The notes under the pieces are model-generated. The model saw only the letters and a list, made by a program, of their open reading frames with translations, did no database searches and was not told the origin of the DNA. A stretch of DNA of 64,000 bases from Erysipelotrichaceae bacterium (GTDB lineage: Bacteria > Bacillota_I > Bacilli_A > Erysipelotrichales > Erysipelotrichaceae), in NCBI GenBank assembly GCA_022767445.1, contig JALENJ010000013.1:1-64000 (forward strand), written 5' to 3'. Shown here one piece after another: positions 4,071-63,464 of the stretch. Position numbers and translations under genes: made by a program. Numbering within the stretch: the stretch's first letter is position 1; each line of letters starts with the position of its first letter.

Positions 4071-5795
4071 ATGTTCTTACATGTACTTAAAGATAGACAA
4101 TACAAAAGACTCTACATCCGCCATTCCGTTCGTAAAGCTGATGGTATTCGTTCCGAGAATGTCAAAAGCCTTGGACGTGTTGACTCACTCATGAAGGAAA
4201 TGAACTTTTCAAGAGAGCAGGTATTAGAGTGGGCTCAAAAACAGGTAGACCAATTGAATAACACCCCTTTCTCTAAGCCTGTACTGTTATCATTGTCTCC
4301 AGACAAAAAGATAGCCATGGATGAACAGCGTTCGTTTCATGCAGGATATTTATTCTTACAATCTATCTATTACGGATTAAAGATGAAGGACATCTTTCGG
4401 ACCATATCTTCACATGAAAAATTTGATTTTGATATTGATGCGATATGTTCAGACCTTGTGTATGCACGCATACTAGAACCTGGTAGTAAGCTTTCATCAT
4501 ACAAGACAGCAGCTTCCTTTCTAGAGAAACCAAAGTATGCATTGCATGATGTCTATCGTGCATTAGGAACCTTGTCCAAACAGATGGATCGCATATTGGC
4601 AGAAGTGTATAAGAACAGCAATCATATTCTAAAGAGAAATAATAGTGTTTTATATTACGACTGTACGAATTATTACTTTGAGATTGAAGAAGAGGACGAC
4701 TTCAGACAATATGGCAAGAGTAAAGAACATCGTCCCAACCCTATCGTACAAATGGGACTGTTTATGGATGGCGATGGCATTCCGCTAATATTCGACTTAT
4801 TTGAAGGAGCGAGCAATGAGCAACCATCTATGAAACCTCTTGAGCAGAAGATCATACGAGATTTTGGTTTCCAAAGATTCGTTGTATGTACAGATGGTGG
4901 ACTGGGATCAGAAAGCAATCGACTATTCAATGATATTAACGGACGTGCATTTATTTGTACGTAATCGCTCAAGAAGCTAAACCGTAAGGATCGTGAGGAA
5001 GCGATGTCAAACCAAAGATGGAAACGTCTAAGAGATGGAGCGAGTGTTGATATCGAAGAGATACAAAAAGAACCATACAAGCATATTGATGACATTTACT
5101 ACAAAGAAGAGCCATATGGCACGAAGAAAGTAGCTGGACAGTTGATGATTGTCACCTATTCACCAAGATATGCAATGTATCAAAAAGAGATACGAAATTC
5201 ACAGATAGCACGTGCAGAGAATATGGTAAGTAAAGGTTCTATCCAAAAACAAAAAAGAAACCCAAACAATCCAGCAAGATTTGTAAAGGTCACAGCCATC
5301 ACATCAGATGGAGAAGTCGCATCAAAAGAGCACTATGCGATTGATCAAGACAAGATTGATAGTGAAGCAATGTACGATGGATTCTATGCCATATGTACTG
5401 ACCTAGTAAATGACAAGATAGAAGACATACTTGCGGTCAGCGAAGGAAGATGGAAGATAGAGGAATCATTCCGTATTATGAAGACAGATTTCGAAGCAAG
5501 ACCTGTATATGTCAGAAAGAAGGACAGCATTCGTGCACACTTCTTGATATGTTATCTAGCTCTACTAATCTTACGTATTCTAGAGAAGAAGCTAGATTCA
5601 GAGCATACAACCTCAGAGTTGATATCTACATTACGAGAATACAAACTATTGAAGGTAAACGGTCAAGGATACATACCAGAATATAAACGAACAAAGATAA
5701 CAGATCATCTACACAAAGAATTTGGATTTCATACAGACACAGAGATTGTGCCAACAGGAGTAATGAGAAAAATCATAGCTGATACGAAAAAATAG
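4071..5795 (+). pseudogene. IS1634-family (IS4-like) transposase interrupted by in-frame TAA
   Basis: ORFs 4071..4964 and 5004..5795 lie in the same frame, separated by TAA at 4962..4964 (GRAFICT*SLKKLNRKDREEAM); YDCTNYYFEI and FEGASNEQPSMKPL and GRWKIEESFRIMKTDFEARPVYVR motifs. Confidence 0.85.
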
Positions 5796-6541: not shown

Positions 6542-8356
6542 CTATGCAATGTTATTTACAACCATCTCTTCGTATTGGCGTGTGTATAGCTCATAGTAGT
6601 AACCTCTTTGTTTCATCAGTTCACTATGCTTACCACGCTCAACAATCTTACCATCACGTACAACTAGAATGACATCCGCATTGACGATGGTTGATAGACG
6701 GTGTGCTATGACAAAGGATGTTCTTCCTTTGATGACCACATCAATCGCATCTTGGATTGCCTTCTCTGTCAGTGTATCAATAGAGGCAGTCGCTTCATCT
6801 AACACCAATAGACGAGGATCCGCAAGGATCGCTCTAGCGAAGGATAATAGTTGTTTTTCACCAGTGGATAACATTCCACCGCCCTCACCGACATCGCTAT
6901 CTAAGCCTTTATCCATCTTCTCAATGACGAATTTAGCGGATACCAAATCCAAGGCTTTCATGATTTCCTCATCGGTAGCTTCTGGTTTACCATAACGTAA
7001 GTTATCACGAACCGTGCCAGAGAATAAGTGTGGTGTCTGTAAAACATAACCGATATTGGAATGTAGCCAAAGTTGAGAACGTTCTCGTGCATCTTTGCCG
7101 TCAATCAATATCTGTCCATGTGTTGGTTCAAAGAAACGACATACTAGATTGACAAGTGTTGATTTACCAGCACCTGTTTCACCTACAATCGCTACGTTTG
7201 TGCCATGAGGAACATCTAAGTTGAAGTTCTCTAAGACCATCTCTTCGCCATCTGGATACTTGAAGTCTACATCCTTGAATGCAATATCACCGATGAGTGG
7301 TTCCCAGTTTTCTTTCTTTGGGTTAAACATATCCCCATACTTCTCAATGACTTCTGGTGAATCTGCGACATCTGATTCCATATGAATCAAACGATCAAAT
7401 CTTTCGATATTTACTTGAATCGCTACCAAGCTAGCAATCGTAGAAATCACGCTCTGTAATGGTTCCATCATGCCTAATGCATAGCTCATAAATACGGATA
7501 ATGTACCGATTAACATCATGTTCTCGACAGTAAGCTTACCACCTTGCCATAGTACGATTGCTAAAGCGATTGAGCTCATCATCGTAACTGTTGCGGAAAA
7601 GGCTGCTGAGTATCTTGTCGCATGTACAGATGTATGACGCATCTGTTCTGTATCTTTCTTGAAATCATCTGAGATTGTCTTTTCAATGACCATCGTCTTA
7701 ATGGATCTAGCACCTGTGATACCTTCATTGAAATCACTCGTAATCTTAGAGTTTAACTCACGAATCTTACGATTGAGTACAATCAACTTTCTTTGGAAGA
7801 ACGTAACAAGTACAACCGCAACTGGGACCAACAAGAAGATCATGCATGCAAGTCTCCAGTTGATCAACAACATGTTGATCATTACAAATACAATATAAGA
7901 TCCATTCCAGATGATATCCATCAAACGCCAAGACATCAATTCACCGATTTTACCAGTATCACTCATAACTCTAGCATGAATGTATCCAACGTTATTTTGA
8001 TTAAAGTACGCAAAGGATAATTCCTGCAAGTGATTGAATGAAGCTTCTCTTAAATCACGATTGAGATCTAGCTCTGTTTTAGAACACCAAAATACACTGT
8101 AGTAGTTCAATACGAACTGTATGATGATGACCACAATATACAAGATAACAAATACCCATAATGTATCTAACACACCCAAACCTACAAAGTGATTGAGGGC
8201 ATATCGATTAAACAATGGATAGATGGAATCAATCAAACTGGTGATGATTCCCATAATGATCATTACGATAATTCGATTCCGATACTTCTTGATAAATGGA
8301 ATCACTCTTGGGATACCGAAGTATGGAAGTGATATATTCTTATCTTTTTCTGTCAT
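6542..8356 (-). CDS. ABC transporter ATP-binding/permease, exporter subunit
   Basis: TM domain plus Walker A GETGAGKST, LSTGEKQLLSFARA, LVLDEATASID. Confidence 0.93.
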   Translation of the reverse strand: MTEKDKNISLPYFGIPRVIPFIKKYRNRIIVMIIMGIITSLIDSIYPLFNRYALNHFVGLGVLDTLWVFVILYIVVIIIQFVLNYYSVFWCSKTELDLNRDLREASFNHLQELSFAYFNQNNVGYIHARVMSDTGKIGELMSWRLMDIIWNGSYIVFVMINMLLINWRLACMIFLLVPVAVVLVTFFQRKLIVLNRKIRELNSKITSDFNEGITGARSIKTMVIEKTISDDFKKDTEQMRHTSVHATRYSAAFSATVTMMSSIALAIVLWQGGKLTVENMMLIGTLSVFMSYALGMMEPLQSVISTIASLVAIQVNIERFDRLIHMESDVADSPEVIEKYGDMFNPKKENWEPLIGDIAFKDVDFKYPDGEEMVLENFNLDVPHGTNVAIVGETGAGKSTLVNLVCRFFEPTHGQILIDGKDARERSQLWLHSNIGYVLQTPHLFSGTVRDNLRYGKPEATDEEIMKALDLVSAKFVIEKMDKGLDSDVGEGGGMLSTGEKQLLSFARAILADPRLLVLDEATASIDTLTEKAIQDAIDVVIKGRTSFVIAHRLSTIVNADVILVVRDGKIVERGKHSELMKQRGYYYELYTRQYEEMVVNNIA

Positions 8357-47616: not shown

Positions 47617-48921
47617 CTATTTATTTCTTTTCTTATATTCTACATTAATACTTTTTTTAATTAAATCGACTCTGATATATTTTATATATTTGTAAATTAA
47701 ATCTTTCAAATTCTCAGTATCAATAAGTGGTGTATTCCCCTCACTCTGCTTCTCGACTTTTTTAAATATTTCTTCCCTTTCATTAACTAGGTTTTCATAC
47801 TTTTTTATAAGAATTTCATTTCTTCCTTGCTTTAATATTAGATCGATTACGGAATTTATATCCTTCTCAACTCTCTTCAGGTATCGCAAAAAGCTCTCTC
47901 TTGCCTCTTTCATATGTTCCTTATCTAATAGGTGAGATAGCTTATATTCTACTTGTTCTTCTATGCATTTCTGACTAATTCTGCTATTGCAGCATTCACA
48001 AAAATAGTATTGATATACTCTATATACCTTCCCTCTGATTTTCTTATGTGTGCTATCGCATTTTAATGTACTTCCACATTTTGAACATACTAAAATCCCT
48101 CTAAATGGATACTGATATTTCTTTTTTCTTGAGCATAACTTAACTCTTTCCAATGCAGCTATCTGTAGATCTTTAGTTATAATTGCAGGTATCACACCTT
48201 CATAAACTTTCCCATATAGTTCAACATCTCCTGTGTACGCTCGATTCTTCAATATCCTATATATATCCTCCTTCCACCATCTCTTTCCTAAAGTTTTTTC
48301 CTTCTTAAAATCCTGATATATTTCATTAGCAGTTTTTTTACCGCTTGCTACTGTTTCAAAAATATAGCGAATGTATCTTGCTTTCTCTTCATCAATGATT
48401 AAATAATGCTTATCCTGCGGATCTCTAATATAGCCAAGTGGAACTTTTGACTTGCAATAATACCCACGTTCTAACGCTTCTGACATACCTCTTTTTGTTC
48501 TCCATGATATGCTATCTTCCTCCCATTGAGAAATTACTCCAATCATTAATATAAACGTCCTACCAGATGGAGTTGTTGTATCAATATTCTCTGTAATACT
48601 TACTAGTTCGATTTGATATTCTTCTAGTAATTCTATTAAATATGCTAAATCTTTAACACTTCTTGTAAGTCGATCCAAATTATGAATAATCAATATATCA
48701 ATACTTTTTGTTTTGATTAATTCAATTATTGATTGTATATGTGGTCTTTTTAAATTTCTTGCTGAAGCACCACGTTCTTCTCTTATTTCTAATTCATAAC
48801 AATCTGCTTCATATTTATATTTACAATATTCCTCTATTTTTCGTTTTTGTTCACCAAGATTATACCCATTTACTACCTGCCATTGGGTAGATTCCCTAAC
48901 ATAGCCAATTATCTTTTTCAC
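47617..48921 (-). CDS. Large serine recombinase (integrase of the mobile element)
   Basis: IIGYVRESTQWQVVNGYNLGEQ, IIHNLDRLTRSVKDL, recombinase domain, CSKCGSTLKC zinc ribbon. Confidence 0.93.
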   Translation of the reverse strand: MKKIIGYVRESTQWQVVNGYNLGEQKRKIEEYCKYKYEADCYELEIREERGASARNLKRPHIQSIIELIKTKSIDILIIHNLDRLTRSVKDLAYLIELLEEYQIELVSITENIDTTTPSGRTFILMIGVISQWEEDSISWRTKRGMSEALERGYYCKSKVPLGYIRDPQDKHYLIIDEEKARYIRYIFETVASGKKTANEIYQDFKKEKTLGKRWWKEDIYRILKNRAYTGDVELYGKVYEGVIPAIITKDLQIAALERVKLCSRKKKYQYPFRGILVCSKCGSTLKCDSTHKKIRGKVYRVYQYYFCECCNSRISQKCIEEQVEYKLSHLLDKEHMKEARESFLRYLKRVEKDINSVIDLILKQGRNEILIKKYENLVNEREEIFKKVEKQSEGNTPLIDTENLKDLIYKYIKYIRVDLIKKSINVEYKKRNK

Positions 48922-51669: not shown

Positions 51670-52149
51670 TCACATTACCTTAGCACAAAGTTTTAATACC
51701 TCCTGATTTTGTTTTAATTCAGCATCTGTTTTGGTTTTACATTTTCTAAACATCTCCCATCTACCACCCTCTTCTGGATGTTCAACACCAATACATCCAA
51801 TACTCGGATATTTCTTAAAGTAATCACTATATCTATCTAGAATTACTTTCTTCTTCTCCATAGGAACTACAACAAAATTCTTATGGCAGAATTCTGAATT
51901 TAAATAAGCTTGTGAAAATGCTTTGTCTATATCAGCAAGTTTGAATTCAAAACTACATAATTCAATATGAAATCCCTTATCATCATTTACCTTTTCTACC
52001 GTGAGCAGATCAACTCCACCATGTCTTGCCTGACATTCAAACTGATATGCAATGATGTTTTTTCTATATCCATACTTTTTCCAAAAGTGTTCTTTTAACG
52101 CTTTTTCTTCTACAAATTTCATAAAGTATATCCCTTCTATTAGCCCCAA
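51670..52149 (-). CDS. Putative PD-(D/E)XK nuclease-like protein of the conjugative element
   Basis: FECQARHGGVDLLTVEK ... CSFEFKLADIDKAFSQAYLN. Confidence 0.55.
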   Translation of the reverse strand: MGLIEGIYFMKFVEEKALKEHFWKKYGYRKNIIAYQFECQARHGGVDLLTVEKVNDDKGFHIELCSFEFKLADIDKAFSQAYLNSEFCHKNFVVVPMEKKKVILDRYSDYFKKYPSIGCIGVEHPEEGGRWEMFRKCKTKTDAELKQNQEVLKLCAKVM

Positions 52150-54887
52150 TTGCTATTAAATAATGAATCTTGAACCCATTCTTTTGGCTTTTCTTTAAAT
52201 GCATTTTTATTAGGAGCTACCTTTCTTTTGGCTTTTCTCAGAACCTGCATTTCATCTGTTCCTGAATCGATATTCTCAATTGTTTCATTTTGTCTCATAG
52301 AACTAACTGAAGAGTTGGATGATTGCATCAACATATATTCATGTGTAAGGCTGAAATTCTGCATTTCTATCAATTTACTTTCAATTGTGTAATTATCTGT
52401 ATAATCCTTTTCTGAGCGATTAAATACATACCAAAAGTAAGGGTAATATCTTGTTACAATAGGCATCTTACGCTGGCGTAAGACAACTGCTTCAGACAGA
52501 GATAAATGTGCTAATTTATCCTTTGTAATAACAGGTACGGCATCAAAATGTCTTGTTTCTTTATTCCACTTTAATTTTTTTCCAGCTCGTTCAGAAACCT
52601 CACGCAATGTTTCTTCAGTAGATGCTAATAAGAAAATCGTATTCATTATGTTTCCCTTGATCGTCTTAGCTTCTTCTCTTCCATACTTCTCATCTAATTG
52701 AGAATATTCCTGAATTACAATGTGCCAGCGGATTCCTCTGAATCTTGATGCAGCAAAGATAGTATTTGGATTGGATATCGCTGGAGAGATTCCAAATTCA
52801 TCCCATACAATATCCCAAGGAATCGGTAATCTTTGCTTAGGATACTTTCTTGCACCGTTTACAAGTTCATTATACAACTGCGTAACAAATATACTTACAA
52901 AAGGGTGATACGTTGATTTTTCATCATTAACAACCATGAAGATTGCTGTAGGTCTTTCTATAAAATCTTGGAAACTAAAGCTAGAGTAGGATGTCATTTT
53001 ACGTACTCTGTCATTGATGAGTCCTATTTGCATCTTATTTGCAAAAGTAGACATAACAGAACCTCTTTCATCCGTTCCCATCTGTGTTATTTTGATTAGC
53101 TTTTCATAGCTTCTATCTGTAACTCGTCTAGTATTTTCCAAATACCATTGTAATAAGCCTTGCTTTTTACTAGGTGTAACCTGATAAATCATGAAGCCTT
53201 CATTTGTAAGGTTATTAATATTTTGGAAATTAATCTGTTCATCTTTCAAATGACAGATATTCCCATCATCATCTAGCCATTCATACTCAAGTAAAAAGCA
53301 AACTGCACCTTCCATCAAAGCCTGCGCTTGTTGCCAGAAGTGAGCCTGCTTTGCATTCTTTTCTTCACAAAGCGTTCTACAGATATCTGTAAGCTGCTCA
53401 AACGCATCACTATAGTCTGGTTTACTGTAATATATATCACGTTCGGCTGCATATAACTCTTCTTGTATTTGTTTATATTCTTTAAATACTCTATGCTCCA
53501 GCACTTTCATATCTTTGTTATCGCTAGGTGCGTTGAGGATGTCATAATATGACTTAATTAACTTTCTTTGAGCTGCTAGATACTTCTTCTTCAGACTAAA
53601 ATAAAATTCTCTTTGTGTCGGATTCTTCCATTCACACTCTGCTTTCTTCTGAGCTTCCCTATACTTCTCTATGACAATACCAAATGGATTCCAACATTCA
53701 CTTTTAGATGGATCAACGAAGTCAAAAACTACAACATTATAATTGTCAGCTTTTAATCGTCCGTAATGACTCTCTAAAAGTTCTCTTTTAATATCATTGA
53801 CAAACATGCTGCTTCCACCAATTCTATTAGCTTCAATCATTGCATGTACAACTGAAGTTGTCTTACCTGAATTCGTTGTACCTATCGTTAGGTCGTGATT
53901 ATCATCCGCATCTACATATAATCTTGATTTATATGTTCTAATAGGCAATCCGCTTCTTCTATTTGTTGTTTCTCCAGCAATGTTCCATTTCTTAAGCTCA
54001 TTTACCTTCCATCTATCGCTCCACTTCATTCTCTGGACACGTGTATTCCAAAAGTGTTTTATAGGATTAAAGACATAATCCATATAATCACGGATGTGCG
54101 GTTTTAATATTACCCATTTAGCATTCCATCTACGTTTGATATTCCAGTTATTATTTTCTAAAGCTCGCTTCTTTGCTTTTGAATAATACTCTCTGTATTC
54201 TGCATACCAAATCTTTGAACTGCATAAATAATGTAATACAAGAATCATTGCTAATATGATGATATAGAATAATCTAAATGAAAATATCTTTAATAATGGT
54301 ATTCTAAGAGTCAAAACATCTACTCTTATAAAACTTAAAAGCCAGTTTATACCACTGACAATAAAGTTGATCAGCAAAAAGAAAAGCAGTATTGCTTCTA
54401 ATGGATATGTAATTGCTCCTATCCACCATTTGTAATCTGTTATATATCTCGTATGATTCAAATATAAGTGATCGATATGCCCCTCTGCATCAAACGTGAA
54501 TCTTTGTAAGCCCTGCTTGGATTCCCTATCATTTGCTATATGTGTATATGCATCTTTTTCTTCAGCAGTAAGACGTCTTTCTTCAGCTCGTCTTTCTCTC
54601 TGTCTCTTATTTGGAATAACATACCATCCTAAGAAGGTTATTAATCCAATAAAGATTAATATACTTGCTAATTTAAAATAGTTTGTATTTCCTTGCCAGA
54701 ACATAACATTCGGATCCATCGTGAATGAAAACAATCCAAACAGTTTAGGCTGCTGTGATAAAGCGATGATATCAAAGTTGAATGATAGCAACCATGCAAT
54801 TTGTAATGCTAAAAAATAACTAATAATTAGATATATAATTGCAAATACTATCGTCTTTAATAATTTCCCCATTCTATCTCCTTTCAT
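52140..54887 (-). CDS. Type IV coupling protein VirD4/TraG
   Basis: TIGTTNSGKTTSVVHAMIEANRIGGSSMFVNDIKREL; FRGIRWHIVIQEYSQLDEKYG. Confidence 0.92.
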   Translation of the reverse strand: MKGDRMGKLLKTIVFAIIYLIISYFLALQIAWLLSFNFDIIALSQQPKLFGLFSFTMDPNVMFWQGNTNYFKLASILIFIGLITFLGWYVIPNKRQRERRAEERRLTAEEKDAYTHIANDRESKQGLQRFTFDAEGHIDHLYLNHTRYITDYKWWIGAITYPLEAILLFFLLINFIVSGINWLLSFIRVDVLTLRIPLLKIFSFRLFYIIILAMILVLHYLCSSKIWYAEYREYYSKAKKRALENNNWNIKRRWNAKWVILKPHIRDYMDYVFNPIKHFWNTRVQRMKWSDRWKVNELKKWNIAGETTNRRSGLPIRTYKSRLYVDADDNHDLTIGTTNSGKTTSVVHAMIEANRIGGSSMFVNDIKRELLESHYGRLKADNYNVVVFDFVDPSKSECWNPFGIVIEKYREAQKKAECEWKNPTQREFYFSLKKKYLAAQRKLIKSYYDILNAPSDNKDMKVLEHRVFKEYKQIQEELYAAERDIYYSKPDYSDAFEQLTDICRTLCEEKNAKQAHFWQQAQALMEGAVCFLLEYEWLDDDGNICHLKDEQINFQNINNLTNEGFMIYQVTPSKKQGLLQWYLENTRRVTDRSYEKLIKITQMGTDERGSVMSTFANKMQIGLINDRVRKMTSYSSFSFQDFIERPTAIFMVVNDEKSTYHPFVSIFVTQLYNELVNGARKYPKQRLPIPWDIVWDEFGISPAISNPNTIFAASRFRGIRWHIVIQEYSQLDEKYGREEAKTIKGNIMNTIFLLASTEETLREVSERAGKKLKWNKETRHFDAVPVITKDKLAHLSLSEAVVLRQRKMPIVTRYYPYFWYVFNRSEKDYTDNYTIESKLIEMQNFSLTHEYMLMQSSNSSVSSMRQNETIENIDSGTDEMQVLRKAKRKVAPNKNAFKEKPKEWVQDSLFNSNWG

Positions 54888-56473
54888 TATTTAACAGATA
54901 CTGCTATCCGTTCATCATTTCTTAAATATGCTTCTATTTCATTTTCAATTTCTTGACCATGCTGCTTGATTGCGTGTTTAACACCTCTTGGCAATCTTCT
55001 TCCCAACAAACCCTTAAAGCCATGATAATCCGTTTTATTTAGACTTTGTCCTTTCCTATAGAAGTTCATTACCCTTTGTGCTTCTTTATTACCACTATTT
55101 TCTGCATCATAGATTTGTGCAATAGCATCTGCTTTTTGTGTTTCTGACTTTGCATTTAATAGACTCGTAGCACCTTTTAAAAACTTATCATTTGATGATT
55201 CCCCAAGTCTTTCTGCAAGCATGCCAGCTTCCTTTAGATTATTGTCTTTAATCAGATTCACCACTTCTACCTGCTGTGGTGTGAAGTCCTTTGTATCAAT
55301 TCCTTCATATATCTTTGATACGATTTGAATTGCATTAGCTATTTTCCATTCGTTTAAAGATGTCATATTGCGTTTGTCCGTTTCCTTTAAATCCTTAAAA
55401 CTTTTCAGGATTGAATTTGCAATCTGAACTCTGAGCTTTTGGTCATGTGTTTCTTTTAGATGTGAAATATTATCATTTGTTAAATCGTTTCTGATATTGT
55501 CTAGCTTGTCTAATTCTTGTGTAAATATTGAATAATCCTCTTTGCAACTATCACACTGTAAAACTTGATTTACAATATTATCTAATTGTTCTCTATATGG
55601 AATCATCGATGCTGCGTTATATTGTAATCTTCCTGTGCGTGGTAATTGTGAATAAAGATTTGCAATTGCATTTAAAATCTCATATGGAAGATTATTAATT
55701 TCACTTATCATCTTTTGTTTCAGTGGTGTAATCTTCTTTAATGCATCTTCAGCATTGTCCATGTACTTTTCTTTATACAATTTTCTAGCAGCAATTTCGT
55801 TTACAAACATTCCTTTTACATAATCTATTTCTTTCTTGGTAAGTTTTCCCCTATCTCTAGAATGTTTTTTTTCCAAAAAATTAACATGGATATGTGGATG
55901 CTTTGTATTCGTATGATAATCTTCCCACCAAATCATATTCTGCGGATCAAGCTTTAATTTTTTAAAACTCTTATATAAAACCGTCTTGGTAATCTTTGCA
56001 AAATCTTCTTGGTCTTTAATCTCATACTCCTTTAAGCTATCAAAACTATCTAATGAAACAACTAGATTCCATACAATATCTCCATCTTTAGAAAATGCAC
56101 TTTTAGAATTTTCAATCCATCTATTTCTATCTTCATCGGTATACAATTTACCTTCATTCGTCATTGTAAAGTACTCTTTTTCAGATGAGTCACGTGTCGC
56201 TGAAGCTCTACTTGTATAATCCATCAGTGAACCATCCAGTGAATTTTTTAAATTAAAAGATGAAGAAATAGTATTTTTATCTACTACTTCCTCATCTATA
56301 AATGTTGTTTCTGATTCGCCCATAGAGTCTTTAGTTGCATCATCTCGTGACAAATAAGTTGTATATCCACCAAAAATTGAATCACAATTTAACTTACCTT
56401 TGTATCCAGAATTCGATGGTGCGTGCTTACCAAATTGCAAGAACGTTGCTTTTACTACAATACTTTTATCCAT
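54887..56473 (-). CDS. MobL-like relaxase (MobP class)
   Basis: MDKSIVVKATFLQFGKHAPSNSGY ... KHPHIHVNFLEKK HxHxN-type motif. Confidence 0.85.
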   Translation of the reverse strand: MDKSIVVKATFLQFGKHAPSNSGYKGKLNCDSIFGGYTTYLSRDDATKDSMGESETTFIDEEVVDKNTISSSFNLKNSLDGSLMDYTSRASATRDSSEKEYFTMTNEGKLYTDEDRNRWIENSKSAFSKDGDIVWNLVVSLDSFDSLKEYEIKDQEDFAKITKTVLYKSFKKLKLDPQNMIWWEDYHTNTKHPHIHVNFLEKKHSRDRGKLTKKEIDYVKGMFVNEIAARKLYKEKYMDNAEDALKKITPLKQKMISEINNLPYEILNAIANLYSQLPRTGRLQYNAASMIPYREQLDNIVNQVLQCDSCKEDYSIFTQELDKLDNIRNDLTNDNISHLKETHDQKLRVQIANSILKSFKDLKETDKRNMTSLNEWKIANAIQIVSKIYEGIDTKDFTPQQVEVVNLIKDNNLKEAGMLAERLGESSNDKFLKGATSLLNAKSETQKADAIAQIYDAENSGNKEAQRVMNFYRKGQSLNKTDYHGFKGLLGRRLPRGVKHAIKQHGQEIENEIEAYLRNDERIAVSVK

Positions 56474-56486
56474 AATTTATCACTTA

Positions 56487-56864
56487 TTAATGATTAAAGT
56501 ATTTCAAATCATCGTTAGCTTTCTCTTGATTTTGCACAACAGTTTGCACATCTTCAACATCTTTTTGTTTATCTAATTGCTCTTTATTTACATTAGTTTG
56601 TACAGAAGTTTCTGTTTTTTGTACTTTTGTTTTTCTTCTTGATGAGCGTTTTGGCTTTTCATCTACATCAATAAAAGCAAATTCCTCCAACAATTTTTGT
56701 TCTTCAGCAATTGCATTTGAATATTTCTTGATGTACATTTCCAGTTTCTTTTTACCATCTTTTAAATCCTTAATATCATTACATAGTTCCTTTAATTCAT
56801 TTTCTTTCTCTGCAATTATCTCACTCATCTTTGCAATTTTTGCATTCAAAATTTCTAAACTCAT
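56487..56864 (-). CDS. Coiled-coil hypothetical protein of mobilization operon
   Basis: 125 aa, Lys/Glu rich; between relaxase and accessory gene. Confidence 0.6.
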   Translation of the reverse strand: MSLEILNAKIAKMSEIIAEKENELKELCNDIKDLKDGKKKLEMYIKKYSNAIAEEQKLLEEFAFIDVDEKPKRSSRRKTKVQKTETSVQTNVNKEQLDKQKDVEDVQTVVQNQEKANDDLKYFNH

Positions 56865-56884: not shown

Positions 56885-57340
56885 TTACTTTCCTTCTTCT
56901 AAGATTTCAGCAGCTCTGTCATTAAAAAGTTCTGCTAAGTTAAAATCATTACGCAAATTTTCATCAACTTTATCATAATTATTTTCTAGACCACTCGACT
57001 TCATGAGTATCATTAGCATCAAATATTCACGAATTAATTGTTCATCTAAATGATACTGTAGTGTCAAAAGTTTACTGCTTACTGCTGCATTTAATTCATC
57101 AATAAAGTGTTTTAATTGTGATTCCATTACTGTTTCAACTTGATCACTTAATGCATTTCTTGCTTTCTTGTCGATCGTTTTTAAGTAATATTCTTTAATT
57201 GCTTTCTTAACAATTTGTGTTCTTGTTGGAATAATTCCATCCCCCATTAAGTGTTCCGTTTCCTCTTTATCGAGAATTTCATCCAACATATCTAAGTATT
57301 CTTCTTCAACTCTAATTTGCAAACGTGTTTCAATTGCCAT
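56885..57340 (-). CDS. Relaxosome accessory / ribbon-helix-helix-like DNA-binding protein
   Basis: METRLQIRVEEEYLDMLDEI...PTRTQIVKKAIKEYYLK pattern (M A I E T R...), start ATG 57340. Confidence 0.65.
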   Translation of the reverse strand: MAIETRLQIRVEEEYLDMLDEILDKEETEHLMGDGIIPTRTQIVKKAIKEYYLKTIDKKARNALSDQVETVMESQLKHFIDELNAAVSSKLLTLQYHLDEQLIREYLMLMILMKSSGLENNYDKVDENLRNDFNLAELFNDRAAEILEEGK

Positions 57341-57370
57341 AATTTTATCCTTTCTTTTTGCGTGATAACA

Positions 57371-57735
57371 ACGTGAGAACAAGTTGTATTTTTGTACTCA
57401 CGTTGTAAGACAACTGTCTTACAAAATTCACGACACTGGAGTACAACGTTATCACATTGTACTAACGAAAAAACACCGATAAATAAACGAAAATGGTCAT
57501 AGACCATTTGTCCGAATTAGAAATGTGAGTACAAACCTGTACTCACGAATTTCTCTTATCCTGCTTCCCTAGTCAAAATTAACTTTTTTGACGGTTTCGA
57601 TTGAAAAATCATGCGACTTTTTTAAAAATGAGTCGAATGATTGAACCAATCTATCTTCTGCCATACAACAGTAAGTCATAGAATTTTTTGGACTTGCGTT
57701 GTTGGCAGTCCGCCAGATTTTTTCTGGCGGTGCGT
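57371..57735. other. oriT: Candidate oriT region with multiple dyads and IncP-like nic motif
   Basis: Dyads TTGTAAGACA/TGTCTTACAA, AAATGGTC/GACCATTT, GTGAGTACA/TGTACTCAC, AATCATGCGACT/AGTCGAATGATT, CCGCCAGA/TCTGGCGG; TATCCTG|C at 57558..57565. Confidence 0.7.
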
Positions 57736-57965
57736 TACAACTCCTTTTGATTTTTTGATTGCACTTGCTTTTCATATTGTATTCTTTCTTTTAACTCTTC
57801 GTTCAGTAACGTTACACCATCTTCATTAAAATAAAATTCATATACTTTTTCTAAAATCACTTCATCTTCAACATTTGTTTCAAATGATAGAATTGCTTTG
57901 ATTAACTCTTTGTAACTTTTAGTTGCCATGAGTTCAAGTATTGCTTTCATTGATAAGTAATCCAT
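57735..57965 (-). CDS. Hypothetical 76-aa protein
   Basis: ORF with RBS (AAAAGGAGAACAT). Confidence 0.5.
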   Translation of the reverse strand: MDYLSMKAILELMATKSYKELIKAILSFETNVEDEVILEKVYEFYFNEDGVTLLNEELKERIQYEKQVQSKNQKEL

Positions 57966-58263: not shown

Positions 58264-58686
58264 TCATCCTAAATTTAATTTATCAATTAGTGCATCCTTC
58301 AATAATTTTGAAAAGTTGATATTTTGTTTAACAGCTGCATCATTTAACCAGCTAGGAATTGTTAATGTCTTTTTTACAGCTTTATCAAAATGTTGTTTTG
58401 CATATTGTTCAGCATCTACACTAACAAGGCTTACAAACGATCCATCTTCAACACTACTATCAAGCTCTTTTGCAACCTTCTCTAAGGATACATCTGCCAA
58501 CTTAGAAGGTGGATTAATAATCTGATCTGGCAATGGCTTATACAAATAACTCGCTAAACATTCTGTTGCATTATTTAATGCATCGCTCAGAGTTTCCCCT
58601 TCTGTTGCTAAATAATTTAAATCAGGAAAGATTACGGAATATCCTCCATCTTCCATAAAGAAGCAAGCTGGATATACACTTAACAT
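58264..58686 (-). CDS. hicB: HicB family antitoxin
   Basis: YPACFFMEDGGYSVIFPDLNYLATEGETLSDALNNATECLASYL. Confidence 0.9.
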   Translation of the reverse strand: MLSVYPACFFMEDGGYSVIFPDLNYLATEGETLSDALNNATECLASYLYKPLPDQIINPPSKLADVSLEKVAKELDSSVEDGSFVSLVSVDAEQYAKQHFDKAVKKTLTIPSWLNDAAVKQNINFSKLLKDALIDKLNLG

Positions 58687-58728
58687 CAAAATCACCTCCA
58701 TATAATATTTGCAATGAAAGCAAGAGGA

Positions 58729-58923
58729 CTATTTAGATAGTAGTCCTGCTTGCTTTAGAATAGAACGCTCGGTCTTAATCTTTAAATCACCAGAATGGAA
58801 CGGAATAGTAACAATACCACTCTTTATAGGATGTGTATATGTTCTATGGCTTCCATTCTGTCTATTAAATTTCCAACCATCAGCAAGGATTAAGCGTTCT
58901 AGCTCTTTGGCAGTTTTAGGCAT
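58729..58923 (-). CDS. hicA: HicA family toxin
   Basis: KELERLILADGWKFNRQNGSHRTYTHPIKSGIVTIPFHSGDLKIKTERSILKQAGL. Confidence 0.93.
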   Translation of the reverse strand: MPKTAKELERLILADGWKFNRQNGSHRTYTHPIKSGIVTIPFHSGDLKIKTERSILKQAGLLSK

Positions 58924-59009: not shown

Positions 59010-59864
59010 TTATTTTTTCTCTTTATAATCTTCAAATCTCCATTCTGTGATTCTTCGTGCCACTACAACATATGGATTGTCTGTTTTATTACTGCATACA
59101 ATAATAAGGAATTTATTTCTACTCGTTGATTTTAGATCGGAGTGTATTGTTGATGCATTCTTATATGTGCTATACCAATCTTCAAAATCTTTCTCATTCT
59201 CAAAATTTCTCTTATCGATATCAAAATCAGGTGCATCTTTCAAATTGAATGCTCCATCAATTTCAAAAGCTTCAGCATATCTCAAATGATAGACAATCAT
59301 ATAACGATGCTGCTCATATTCACTCTGTGATGTTAAGAAATAATCTCTCAAAAAATCATATTGTGTCATATCACCGTTAGAGTAGTTATAGATTGTATAT
59401 ACATGATCGTTTTCTTCATCCGCATCTTTCAAGATATAGCCTTGTCCTGCGTTGGATGTTGCATCTGTACCATCTCTATCCTTGTAATACTCTCTATTAT
59501 CAGATTTCATGATACGCATACCAATTTGTGTAGGAGGAAAATTAATCCAGCCAGTTAGCTCTTTATTGTATGTATTGTAAAGAAGATTGTATGTGTTTTG
59601 CACATATTCAAAGTTATTTACAAGAATCGCTGTTCTTTCTATCTCTTTTAGTTCTGGGTCTTCGATTTCTTTACTTTCTCCCCATTCATTCAAGTTATCA
59701 TCTTGATTTTGATTCTCTTTTTCCTCTGGGGGCGTTTCGCCCCCAGCACTATTTTGTGTAGTTTCATGATTTTGAAAACGGTCTTTAATTAAAAAGTGAT
59801 ATGTTCCCATTCCAATTAAAGCTATAACTACACCAGCAATTATCATCTTTCTTAATCTACTCAT
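59010..59864 (-). CDS. Membrane-anchored sortase B-like protein, apparently catalytically degenerate
   Basis: ELTGWINFPPTQIGMRIMKSDNREYYKDRDGTDATSNAGQGYIL / VYTIYNYSNGDMTQYDFLRDYF / FLIIVCSNKTDNPYVVVARRI resemble SrtB blocks but lack the IYGHN His and the expected Arg. Confidence 0.55.
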   Translation of the reverse strand: MSRLRKMIIAGVVIALIGMGTYHFLIKDRFQNHETTQNSAGGETPPEEKENQNQDDNLNEWGESKEIEDPELKEIERTAILVNNFEYVQNTYNLLYNTYNKELTGWINFPPTQIGMRIMKSDNREYYKDRDGTDATSNAGQGYILKDADEENDHVYTIYNYSNGDMTQYDFLRDYFLTSQSEYEQHRYMIVYHLRYAEAFEIDGAFNLKDAPDFDIDKRNFENEKDFEDWYSTYKNASTIHSDLKSTSRNKFLIIVCSNKTDNPYVVVARRITEWRFEDYKEKK

Positions 59865-59866
59865 TT

Positions 59867-60868
59867 TTAATCTCCTATATAGCGTAGAACGCCTTCCCAG
59901 TTATCATCATAATATGGAGTTACAGATATTTCATTTCCAGTTTGATCACCTACATTTGCTCCAAAAATACCTCCATATTCATCACAGTGCGCTCCAACGT
60001 TCATACCACCGCCCAGATACATTTCCGTATGCGATTGTGTTTGTAAAAGAATATCCCCTCTTTTTAAGGAACTACTACCACCATTTACATTAATAGCAGA
60101 TATATCTCCTAACATCCATCTAGGTATCCATACAAACTTTCCAGTAGCTTCAAATTGTTCAATCATTGTATGTGTACTTCCTACTGCCACATCAATTCCT
60201 ACACTACGAATTGCGAAAGCCATTAAAGAAGAACAATCATAATCAGGATTCCCTAATCTACGTATTTGTGAATAACCACACGCTGGATTATTTGCCACGT
60301 CGATAAGCCATGCTATAGCATGCTCGATCGGCTGCGCTACAGGTGTTCCCAATGTATCTATATATTTTGCACTTTTTGTATCTTTTCTCGTAGCTTGAAT
60401 TTGGTCACTCAATCCTTTGATTTTTTCTCTATCTTCCGTAGAGAAAGCTATTCCCGTTTTAGTTTCAATTTTTCTATAAATCTGATTGATTGTTTTTGAA
60501 CCATCAAAATTAACTACATAATCAGATATCAAATAAACATCATTGATATCTTCCCCTGTTTCAAGGAAATAATAACAAGATATAGCTTCAGCAACATGAA
60601 TATCTGGATATCTTCCGTATGGTTCAAATTTAGGATATATCGAAGTAAACCAATCATCCACGTTATAGCCATTATCAAAGAATCCAGTAACCCATCCTTT
60701 TAATGCATCTAAAGTAACTAAAGGAGCAGCAACTACTGCTGCAATAGAAAGTAAAGGGATAGTCAAACATACTATCCCTAAAATTGCTACGAAAATAACA
60801 ATATATTTTTTAAACTTCTTAATTTGATTTTCCACTTGATAACATTGCTCCCATTTCCCACAGCTCAT
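59867..60868 (-). CDS. NlpC/P60-type peptidoglycan hydrolase (Amidase_5-like) of T4SS
   Basis: N-terminal TM; PACGYSQIRRLGNPDYDCSSLMAFAIRSVGID ... LKRGDILLQTQSHTEMYLGGGMNVGAH. Confidence 0.85.
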   Translation of the reverse strand: MSCGKWEQCYQVENQIKKFKKYIVIFVAILGIVCLTIPLLSIAAVVAAPLVTLDALKGWVTGFFDNGYNVDDWFTSIYPKFEPYGRYPDIHVAEAISCYYFLETGEDINDVYLISDYVVNFDGSKTINQIYRKIETKTGIAFSTEDREKIKGLSDQIQATRKDTKSAKYIDTLGTPVAQPIEHAIAWLIDVANNPACGYSQIRRLGNPDYDCSSLMAFAIRSVGIDVAVGSTHTMIEQFEATGKFVWIPRWMLGDISAINVNGGSSSLKRGDILLQTQSHTEMYLGGGMNVGAHCDEYGGIFGANVGDQTGNEISVTPYYDDNWEGVLRYIGD

Positions 60869-63464
60869 TTTGAGTTGCGATTACGTGAATAGGAATCCGT
60901 CTATCTCCAAGAATTAGCAATGCATCACCTTGCTGGAATCCGTTTTTCACCCAGAAGGTTTCATTCTCATTGATATCCTGAAGCTTTTCTAATCCCTCTG
61001 TAGCATCCTTATTTAGTTTCATGATTATCTTATAGGCTGAGTTGTTAAACATCGCTCTCGTGTGCATAATAACGCTATCTGCTGCAAAATCTTCTGGTTC
61101 TTGTGTGATGATAAACATTAGGTTTCTATATTTTCTAGAACGTCTTACAAATTGTGCAACCATCTTAGCTGTATGTGATGTTTGAATTACATCATGTGCT
61201 TCATCAACAATAAATGCGGATTCTATCTTATCATTTAAGCATAGTGTCCATGAGTAGTTAAACATGAGATAGTACAATGCATTTTTTAATTCTTGTGGTG
61301 CATTGAACAATTCCTTTGTTCCAAAGGATACTATATTACGCCCATTTGGATTTACGTTGATTGTAGTATGTCCATTTAAGTACACAGACCATTCATTTAA
61401 AATACGGAACATCTTTCTAGATAATGAGTTTAATAGCTTCACGTCATCTTGATATCCATCGCCTTTATTATGCATTGCATCTCTAACCTTTAATAGGCAA
61501 GCATTGAAGGTTTCAAATGTTGGATATTGTTCTCTAGTATAACCCTTAAATGATTGATACTTCCCATTATCATCTGGTTTGATTCCAACCTCTTCATATG
61601 CCATTTTAACAATTCCACCAATAAAGCTAATAGCATCCTCTTCAATCTGTGGAAACAAGAATTGGAATAGAATAGTAACATCTTGAATTACTTTATCTAT
61701 CGCTAATGCTGTATCCCACATCAGGCTATCATCTTCACCTTCATCCACATCAATCGGTTTTAAATCAAAGACATTAATTACGTTACCTCTCTTGCCCCAG
61801 TCTACAAACGTTCCACCATACATTTGGGTTAGCTTTTCATTCTTAGACTCTGGGTCGATCCAAATCGTGTATGTCTTTTTTCTAATCAGCGAACGAACAA
61901 CTAATGCTGTTAATGTTGTCTTACCAGAACCTGAAGAACCAACAATACAGAAGTTTCCATTTAATCTATTTTGCTTTCCTGCTTCAGATGAATTATGTAG
62001 ATAATAAAATGGGTCTAAGAATATCTTTCCGCCATTTTGTAATTCCTCTCCCAGCAAGAAACCTTCTGAGTCGTTTAAAGTCTCAAAGATAAATGGATAT
62101 AATCCAGCAATCCCATCAGAAGTTTGTGGTAAAGAGATATTTTCTTCAATAATTGATGGTAGTCCTGACTTGATAAATAAAGGTGTGCAAATCTTAAATA
62201 AAGCTTCTTGGATTAGTGGTGCAAAGGTAAAACGGAATCCATTCAAGGATAGCACTGAGCGTAACTTATCTGTTTTATCACGCAGCTCTTTTTCATCATC
62301 CGCAATGACTTGAAAGATAATGGTCAGGTCATGTGTTCTATCTGACTTTCGGATGACATCATTAATATACGTCTGCTGCGATTCAAGCTCTGTAATAATA
62401 CGTTGCTTTTCCATCTCATCTTTTGATTTAGCATAACGCTCTTTCATATTACGTAAGTCTTTATTCAACATTGCACTGATATCATCATTCGATTTTTTAG
62501 ACTTCATAAATAACTTAATGGATGGGTCATTTAAAAAATCCGTAAGCATCCCAAGAGTATAAACTGGTGGTAATTGTGTGATCAAAATACATTTAATCAA
62601 TTTATCACCAAGCTCAATATTCTTATTTCTAACACGTAATCCCAAAGGAGCAATCTTTGACTTTTGGACTATGTTTTCACTTGGTTTGACGTTCGTAATC
62701 GGGCTGCCAAGTTTAGCAAAAGTATCAGTATAATCCACCTTCTGATATTGGTCTTTTTCTACATCTAATTCATACTGGACATTCATATATGAAAAGATTC
62801 CTCTGCTGAACGTATAATCCGTTATCAAGGAATTCTCAAAGTAAAATGAAATCAAGGAATAGAAATCTCTTCTATTGAGTACCTTCGGTGAAAATCCTGC
62901 ATTTGTCCAAAGTCTATATAAATCCTCTAGATTCTTTTGGAGCCGCTTTTCATCTGTATCACGAATCAGCAACATGAATTCCTTTTCTCGGTTGTATTTT
63001 TGGAAATCATAAATCTTTTCCAAATCAGCCTCAATCATTCGACTCACAACCTGATCAGTTTCATTTCTAGCTTCTGCATTTAATTGATTAATCCAATTAT
63101 CCGCATTGATTTTTGAATATGGAAATTCAAACCACACTTCATCAGGCATTTGATTCAAAACTAACCTAATCGCATCCACTCTTGCACGTTGCTCGCTCAT
63201 TTCATCAATGAAAATATTATGTGGTGTCAGTTTGATTCCTTTTATATAGTATTTCTTCTCTTTTCCGATAATGATGCAATCATCTTCAACGGACTGTAAG
63301 TCCATCCATTTTAAAGTAGTGGCAACTTTCTTCTGGAGTTGTTTTGTTGCCTTCTTTGTTTTGAGAAGCTTATGATATTCTTTTTTCTCAAGCCTGCTCA
63401 TTTTTCTCTCATTTTTCATCTCGATAGATGCCCTCCCAAAGATATACTCTATTTGAAGTAGCAA
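60819..63464 (-). CDS. VirB4/TraE-like conjugation ATPase
   Basis: NFCIVGSSGSGKTTLTALVVRSLI; SAFIVDEAHDVIQ; LMFIITQEPEDFA. Confidence 0.93.
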   Translation of the reverse strand: MLLQIEYIFGRASIEMKNERKMSRLEKKEYHKLLKTKKATKQLQKKVATTLKWMDLQSVEDDCIIIGKEKKYYIKGIKLTPHNIFIDEMSEQRARVDAIRLVLNQMPDEVWFEFPYSKINADNWINQLNAEARNETDQVVSRMIEADLEKIYDFQKYNREKEFMLLIRDTDEKRLQKNLEDLYRLWTNAGFSPKVLNRRDFYSLISFYFENSLITDYTFSRGIFSYMNVQYELDVEKDQYQKVDYTDTFAKLGSPITNVKPSENIVQKSKIAPLGLRVRNKNIELGDKLIKCILITQLPPVYTLGMLTDFLNDPSIKLFMKSKKSNDDISAMLNKDLRNMKERYAKSKDEMEKQRIITELESQQTYINDVIRKSDRTHDLTIIFQVIADDEKELRDKTDKLRSVLSLNGFRFTFAPLIQEALFKICTPLFIKSGLPSIIEENISLPQTSDGIAGLYPFIFETLNDSEGFLLGEELQNGGKIFLDPFYYLHNSSEAGKQNRLNGNFCIVGSSGSGKTTLTALVVRSLIRKKTYTIWIDPESKNEKLTQMYGGTFVDWGKRGNVINVFDLKPIDVDEGEDDSLMWDTALAIDKVIQDVTILFQFLFPQIEEDAISFIGGIVKMAYEEVGIKPDDNGKYQSFKGYTREQYPTFETFNACLLKVRDAMHNKGDGYQDDVKLLNSLSRKMFRILNEWSVYLNGHTTINVNPNGRNIVSFGTKELFNAPQELKNALYYLMFNYSWTLCLNDKIESAFIVDEAHDVIQTSHTAKMVAQFVRRSRKYRNLMFIITQEPEDFAADSVIMHTRAMFNNSAYKIIMKLNKDATEGLEKLQDINENETFWVKNGFQQGDALLILGDRRIPIHVIATQNELWEMGAMLSSGKSN

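Follow-up and report, generated by a model that had tools for sequence, protein, structure and literature searches.

A very probable MOBL-type origin of transfer with an IncP-like core in a mobile element of an uncultured Erysipelotrichaceae bacterium

We found that a non-coding block at 57360-57735 of a 64,000-nt stretch of DNA (hereafter the window) is very probably the origin of transfer (oriT) of a mobile element from an uncultured gut or rumen Erysipelotrichaceae bacterium, whose assembly comprises about 1.9 Mb. The best explanation, to which we give a high probability, is that the block serves an integrative and conjugative element (ICE), with a MobL relaxase nicking at TTATCCTG|CTT and an accessory protein occupying TTGTACTCACG sites. 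An earlier note had proposed a candidate oriT in front of the accessory and relaxase genes, and conservation, covariation and linkage to MobL genes support that proposal. Sequence comparison supports describing the element as a MOBL-type oriT, with the IR1-IR2-core order of pWBG749 and an IncP-like core, rather than as an IncP oriT. The double-hairpin oriT of pWBG749 was already known; what is new here is the IncP-like core variant.

The block is flanked by the start of a 151-aa gene and by a 76-aa ORF (57735-57965, minus strand), and the mobilization and conjugation genes around it are all on the minus strand:
47617-48921, minus strand: large serine recombinase (PF00239, PF07508)
52140-54887, minus strand: VirD4/TraG-type coupling protein (PF02534, E=2.7e-35)
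54887-56473, minus strand: MobL relaxase, 528 aa (PF18555, E=4.4e-24; NCBIfam MobP3/MobP2 below cut-off)
56487-56864, minus strand: small gene, 125 aa, between the accessory gene and the relaxase, with a homologue only in the closest locus (L002/L031)
56885-57340, minus strand: accessory gene, 151 aa, with a ribbon-helix-helix (RHH)-like N-terminus and an SmpO/Aux-like position
59867-60868, minus strand: cell-wall hydrolase of the conjugation module (Pfam ELLD, Amidase_5)
60819-63464, minus strand: VirB4-type conjugation ATPase (NCBIfam VirB4_plasma, E=1.4e-71, below its cut-off; Pfam P-loop_TraG)
The serine recombinase, MobL, VirD4 and VirB4 genes are among those expected of an ICE. The recombinase probably serves as the integrase, close to the element's left end, and chromosomal-type ABC-transporter genes lie beyond it, below 46.3 kb. 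A plasmid megablast of the conjugation module returned no match.

MobL proteins form a large relaxase family of Firmicutes, with over 800 members counted in 2017 (PMC5313138). The relaxase gene of the window starts about 1.1 kb from the oriT core, with the accessory gene and the 125-aa gene between. Its family profile matches the structure of the pLS20 relaxase RelLS20 (9qq7, E=3.3e-7); a search for similar folds, run with the full-length model, found no usable match, and we used the sequence evidence. Y40, H194 and H196 are invariant among 18 relatives and H187 is nearly so, and we predict that Tyr40 is the nucleophile, acting with His187, His194 and His196. By eye, Tyr40 aligns with Tyr26 of RelLS20, which is needed for nicking (PMC5313138).

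Several near-perfect dyads had been reported in the block, and they are present, with coordinates shifted by one base. Its features are as follows:
57361-57467: TTGTACTCACG array, predicted accessory-protein sites, with copies at 57361 (minus), 57372 (minus), 57392 (plus), 57436 (minus) and 57457 (plus)
57368-57406: dyad ACAACGTGAGAACAA/TTGTACTCACGTTGT, 14 of 15 positions paired
57403-57424: dyad TTGTAAGACA/TGTCTTACAA, perfect
57440-57463: dyad, 9 of 10 positions paired
57491-57509, plus strand: IR1, AAATGGTC-ATA-GACCATTT, a perfect 8-bp stem with a 3-nt loop
57519-57554, plus strand: IR2, AGAAAT-GTGAGTACA / AACC / TGTACTCAC-(GA)-ATTTCT, a 15-bp stem with a 2-nt bulge that stops 1 nt short of the core
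57524 (minus) and 57537 (plus): TTGTACTCACG copies inside IR2
57525-57546: dyad GTGAGTACA/TGTACTCAC, perfect, the inner part of IR2
57556-57566, plus strand (template strand of the mob genes): oriT core TTATCCTG|CTT (= TTATCCTGCTT), unpaired, predicted nick 57563/57564
57710-57730: dyad CCGCCAGA/TCTGGCGG, perfect, with a 5-nt T loop
Read 5' to 3', the conserved unit thus runs IR1, TTGTCC, IR2, core. IR1 had gone unnamed in the earlier note, and the 9-bp perfect hairpin with an AACC loop described there is real, though it sits at 57525-57546 and not at 57526-57547. The gap of about 10 nt that had been placed between this hairpin and TTATCCTG shrinks to 1 nt, since the full bulged stem reaches 57554. 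The oriT had been drawn as 57371-57735; its 3' part, 57567-57735, lies outside the conserved unit. The CCGCCAGA/TCTGGCGG hairpin belongs to this outer part, and we rejected it as a nick site for that reason and because neither strand has a core following it on the 3' side.

The sequence TATCCTGC occupies 57557-57564, 2 nt past the IR2 stem, and fits the pattern of YATCCTG|Y immediately following an inverted repeat, the sequence cleaved by RP4 and VirD2 (PMC3772185). The resemblance to the IncP/RP4 nick region that had been noticed is therefore borne out, on the strand that had been named. By analogy with RP4 and VirD2, the predicted cut falls between 57563 and 57564 of the plus strand; the position given before, 57564/57565, was off by one, as TATCCTG spans 57557-57563 and the same rule then yields 57563/57564. 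We dropped the core motif alone as evidence because the window contains YATCCTGY 16 times, against 7.5 expected; the longer TTATCYTGCTT occurs once, against 0.17 expected. A literature search for TTATCCTG together with oriT found a paper on H. pylori tfs4 and no MOBL report. As in RP4 (IncP) and Ti VirD2, a stem stands directly 5' of YATCCTG|Y, but the window has two hairpins where theirs have one, sits in a Gram-positive conjugation module, and encodes a MobL relaxase rather than TraI or VirD2. Because the relaxase is MobL, we speak of an IncP-like nick region but not of an IncP oriT.

The evidence that carries this reading is comparative. We gathered MobL genes from the family, the order and plasmids, and oriented their upstream DNA alike. 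Of 58 non-redundant regions upstream of MobL genes, 11 had TTATCCTGCTT on the template strand and none had it on the opposite strand, and about 0.27 occurrences of the 9-mer TTATCCTGC would be expected in the 58 regions. Folding showed that in nearly all regions with TTATCCTGCTT the core lies within a few bases 3' of a stem, with a short stem bearing a 3-nt loop and a TTGTYC linker farther 5'. In Erysipelotrichales, DNA preceding MobL relaxase genes thus repeatedly carries a block of IR1, TTGTYC, IR2 and unpaired core. A search for exact TATCNTG beside perfect hairpins had passed over loci whose stems are bulged, and folding and a covariance model were used instead. When 15 loci were aligned (A3, 14 consensus pairs), 98.1% of stem cells were paired and 11 of 14 pairs had changed on both sides; none of 500 shuffles reached these values, a count that is not a probability because the sequences are related. 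Pairing fell to about 52% when the alignment was slid by one base, and it collapsed on slides of 1-3 columns. Across the 15 loci, all IR1 cells are paired, with changes on both sides in 5 of 8 pairs, and each of the six outer pairs of IR2 that were aligned shows compensatory changes. The unpaired core as a whole is nearly constant in these loci, and TTATCYTG within it is invariant, the only unpaired sequence so kept. The alignment of relatives that the earlier note had called for thus places conservation around TATCCTG as it had foreseen, centred on TTATCCTGCTT, with two compensating hairpins 5' of it.

We built a covariance model, R1, from A3. It scored the window site at 67.3 bits, with E = 2.8e-11 for a search of the 1.9-Mb host genome, in which it found no second site, and it recovered 12 loci outside the training set at E < 1e-4. 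The closest relaxase relatives, L002 (53 bits) and L003 (41 bits), were found untrained, with the core CTTACCCTGTTT. Among 276 family genomes, in which we compared R1 matches with MobL positions by hand, the model gave 40 matches, 32 of them within 5 kb of a MobL gene; of the other eight, three were on a MobL contig at a distance of 9-15 kb and five had no MobL gene found. A search of 391 genomes across the phylum added four strong new matches, in a second family of the order and about 1-3 kb from MobL genes. About half of the distinct MobL upstream regions examined give an R1 match, and the remaining MobL loci may have another oriT layout or position.

Two further kinds of site emerged from these searches. 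In L115, two strong oriT units in opposite orientation stand 0.2 kb apart (5415-5485, minus, and 5698-5769, plus; G113:C201:19414 and 19697), near a ParA-like gene and some 9 kb away from the MobL gene on that contig, and they are possibly an extra oriT pair. Units resembling the oriT also occur in genomes in which no MobL gene was found (L116 5645-5707, L117 537-604, L118 5631-5693, L119 225-298 and L120 894-967); these may be remnants or, by analogy with staphylococci, oriT copies mobilised in trans.

We considered whether the hairpins could work as terminators of transcription or as an mRNA leader that regulates the mob operon. The block is upstream of the accessory gene and has four terminator-like sites against 0.4 expected, as this explanation would have it, but the invariant core is not a T-run and an Rfam search of the block gave no match, which counts against a leader. 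The unit is moreover inverted relative to the relaxase gene in some elements, as in pWBG749/pLS20, an arrangement that a cis-acting leader would not tolerate, and we consider this explanation extremely improbable. Such inversion was observed at L015, L024 and L049, where the order of gene entry into the recipient would consequently differ between elements.

The TTGTACTCACG motif (11 bp, at most 2 mismatches) has seven copies in 57361-57547 (187 bp), against 14 in the other ~63.8 kb, and six of the seven make three inverted pairs. This confirms the recurring half-motif reported before, with 7 of the window's 21 copies falling here. That it is the iteron of the accessory protein, as had also been suggested, gains support from recurrence of the IR2-arm sequence upstream. 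In 29 loci, we compared the 10 nt beside the IR2 loop with the 200 nt 5' of IR1: identity averaged 0.868 within a locus and 0.757 against other loci, and none of 20,000 permutations was as high. The same test on the 3' side gave no signal (0.733 own, 0.726 other). Such locus-specific recurrence is as expected of an accessory-protein site and supports one resembling ossA/ossB in pWBG749, where SmpO binds a motif in an IR2 arm and an upstream copy, with motifs that differ between subtypes (PMC8136818).

Homologues of the 151-aa protein sit between the oriT and the relaxase in relatives. A moderate-confidence structure model gave it an N-terminal strand-like segment and helices at 13-32 and 40-55, and the best match in a fold search was a weak one to Reg576 (E=1.8), which we take to be an RHH protein. 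Neither Pfam/NCBIfam with the protein nor a PDB sequence search with its profile returned a match. The motif has seven copies, of which five lie no more than ~130 bp from where the accessory gene starts; together with a weak promoter-like site at 57371-57342 (minus), they could mean that the dyads are mere operators through which an accessory or repressor protein controls its own promoter, with no nick site. We hold this to be very unlikely indeed, since operators leave unexplained IR1, the IR1-IR2 spacing, the invariant core and the recovery of the unit beside diverged MobL genes. Autoregulation may occur in addition to a role in the oriT.

Of the known systems, the oriT that we propose is closest in layout to that of pWBG749 (MOB_MG/MOBL; SmpP relaxase, SmpO accessory protein). 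There and in its relatives, CTTATGCTCTT adjoins IR1-IR3, the core is required for mobilisation and DNA 3' of it is dispensable (O'Brien et al. 2015, PMC4652767). Both systems have the order IR1 (a short stem with a 3-nt loop), IR2, core; a relaxase of the same family; an accessory gene between oriT and relaxase, for an RHH protein in pWBG749 and a predicted RHH-like one in the window; and an accessory motif, putative in the window, in IR2 that is repeated upstream. They differ in that the core is CTTATGCTCTT in pWBG749 and TTATCCTGCTT in the window, the stretch CTTATCCTGCTT departing from CTTATGCTCTT by 2 substitutions in the first 9 bases, and in that the pWBG749 unit is oriented oppositely relative to the relaxase gene. 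The TTGTYC linker and the IR1-IR2 spacing are also not the same, which is why R1 misses plasmids of the pWBG749 family. The CTTATGCTCTT core also occurs in pLS20, Exiguobacterium, Planococcus and a Lactiplantibacillus plasmid, and four loci (L009, L021, L026 and L027) carry TTATGCTCG or TTATGCCCG on an IR1-TTGTYC-IR2 frame recognised by R1. Both core forms fall within one supported eight-row clade of the relaxase tree; we therefore file the window as a core variant and not as a plain pWBG749 member, and on sequence grounds CTTATCCTG|CTT and CTTATGCTC|TT look like states of one element.

The MobL cut site has been poorly defined: it was mapped biochemically in pLS20 and confined to a 16-bp interval in pWBG749, and these two results show no obvious agreement. 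Plasmid pLS20 shares the MOBL relaxase and has two RHH auxiliary proteins, and its template-strand nick was mapped at GCC|GG beside an inverted repeat (PMC5313138; the nick likewise in PMC7755788), which is unlike both core forms. RelLS20 nicked that strand beside GGCTTTTTGC/GCAAAAAGCC, away from the plasmid's own CTTATGCTCTT core. In the pLS20 sequence (L082, ~7740-7810), this core lies ~40 nt from the published nick on the opposite strand, so nick and core disagree. Given this sole biochemically mapped MOBL nick, the conserved core need not equal the in vitro cut site, and the block could be an oriT that is nicked elsewhere, for instance where a hairpin stem begins away from the core, as described for pLS20. 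We consider this unlikely: the invariant unpaired TTATCYTG matches a proven MOBP cut site, and recombination confined the pWBG749 nick to 16 bp containing the core (PMC4652767).

The covariance-supported model for Erysipelotrichales gives a precise predicted nick position, points to the staphylococcal core being a variant, and allows oriTs to be found in genomes and metagenomes, including those without a relaxase gene. The comparison also links MOBL and IncP nick sites, in that a predicted cut site of Gram-positive MobL resembles that of the Gram-negative plasmid RP4. A wider proposal, which we advance tentatively and rate a little more doubtful than probable, is that MobL relaxases without exception share a homologous cut site, TTAT[C/G]CY[G/C]|N, in an RP4-like state, TTATCCTG|C, or a staphylococcal one, TTATGCTC|T. 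If so, the pWBG749 nick would be CTTATGCTC|TT, and pLS20 would use for its transfer a nick other than the published one.

For the oriT of the window, we infer accessory-protein binding, cleavage, the exact cut position and polarity as follows. The RHH-like accessory protein (56885-57340) would bind the TTGTACTCACG array at 57361-57467 and the IR2 arms, marking the oriT as its own, and the MobL relaxase (54887-56473) would recognise the hairpins and cut the plus strand at 57563/57564 via Tyr40. The strand beginning CTTCCC would then lead into the recipient, with transfer proceeding rightward on the plus strand and the relaxase and coupling-protein genes entering last. IR2, just 5' of the cut, may serve single-strand recognition and re-closure at the end of transfer. 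Within the conjugation module, a HicB/HicA toxin-antitoxin pair (58264-58923) lies in the predicted leading region, and a Sortase-B-like protein (59010-59864, a weak NCBIfam match) is also encoded there.
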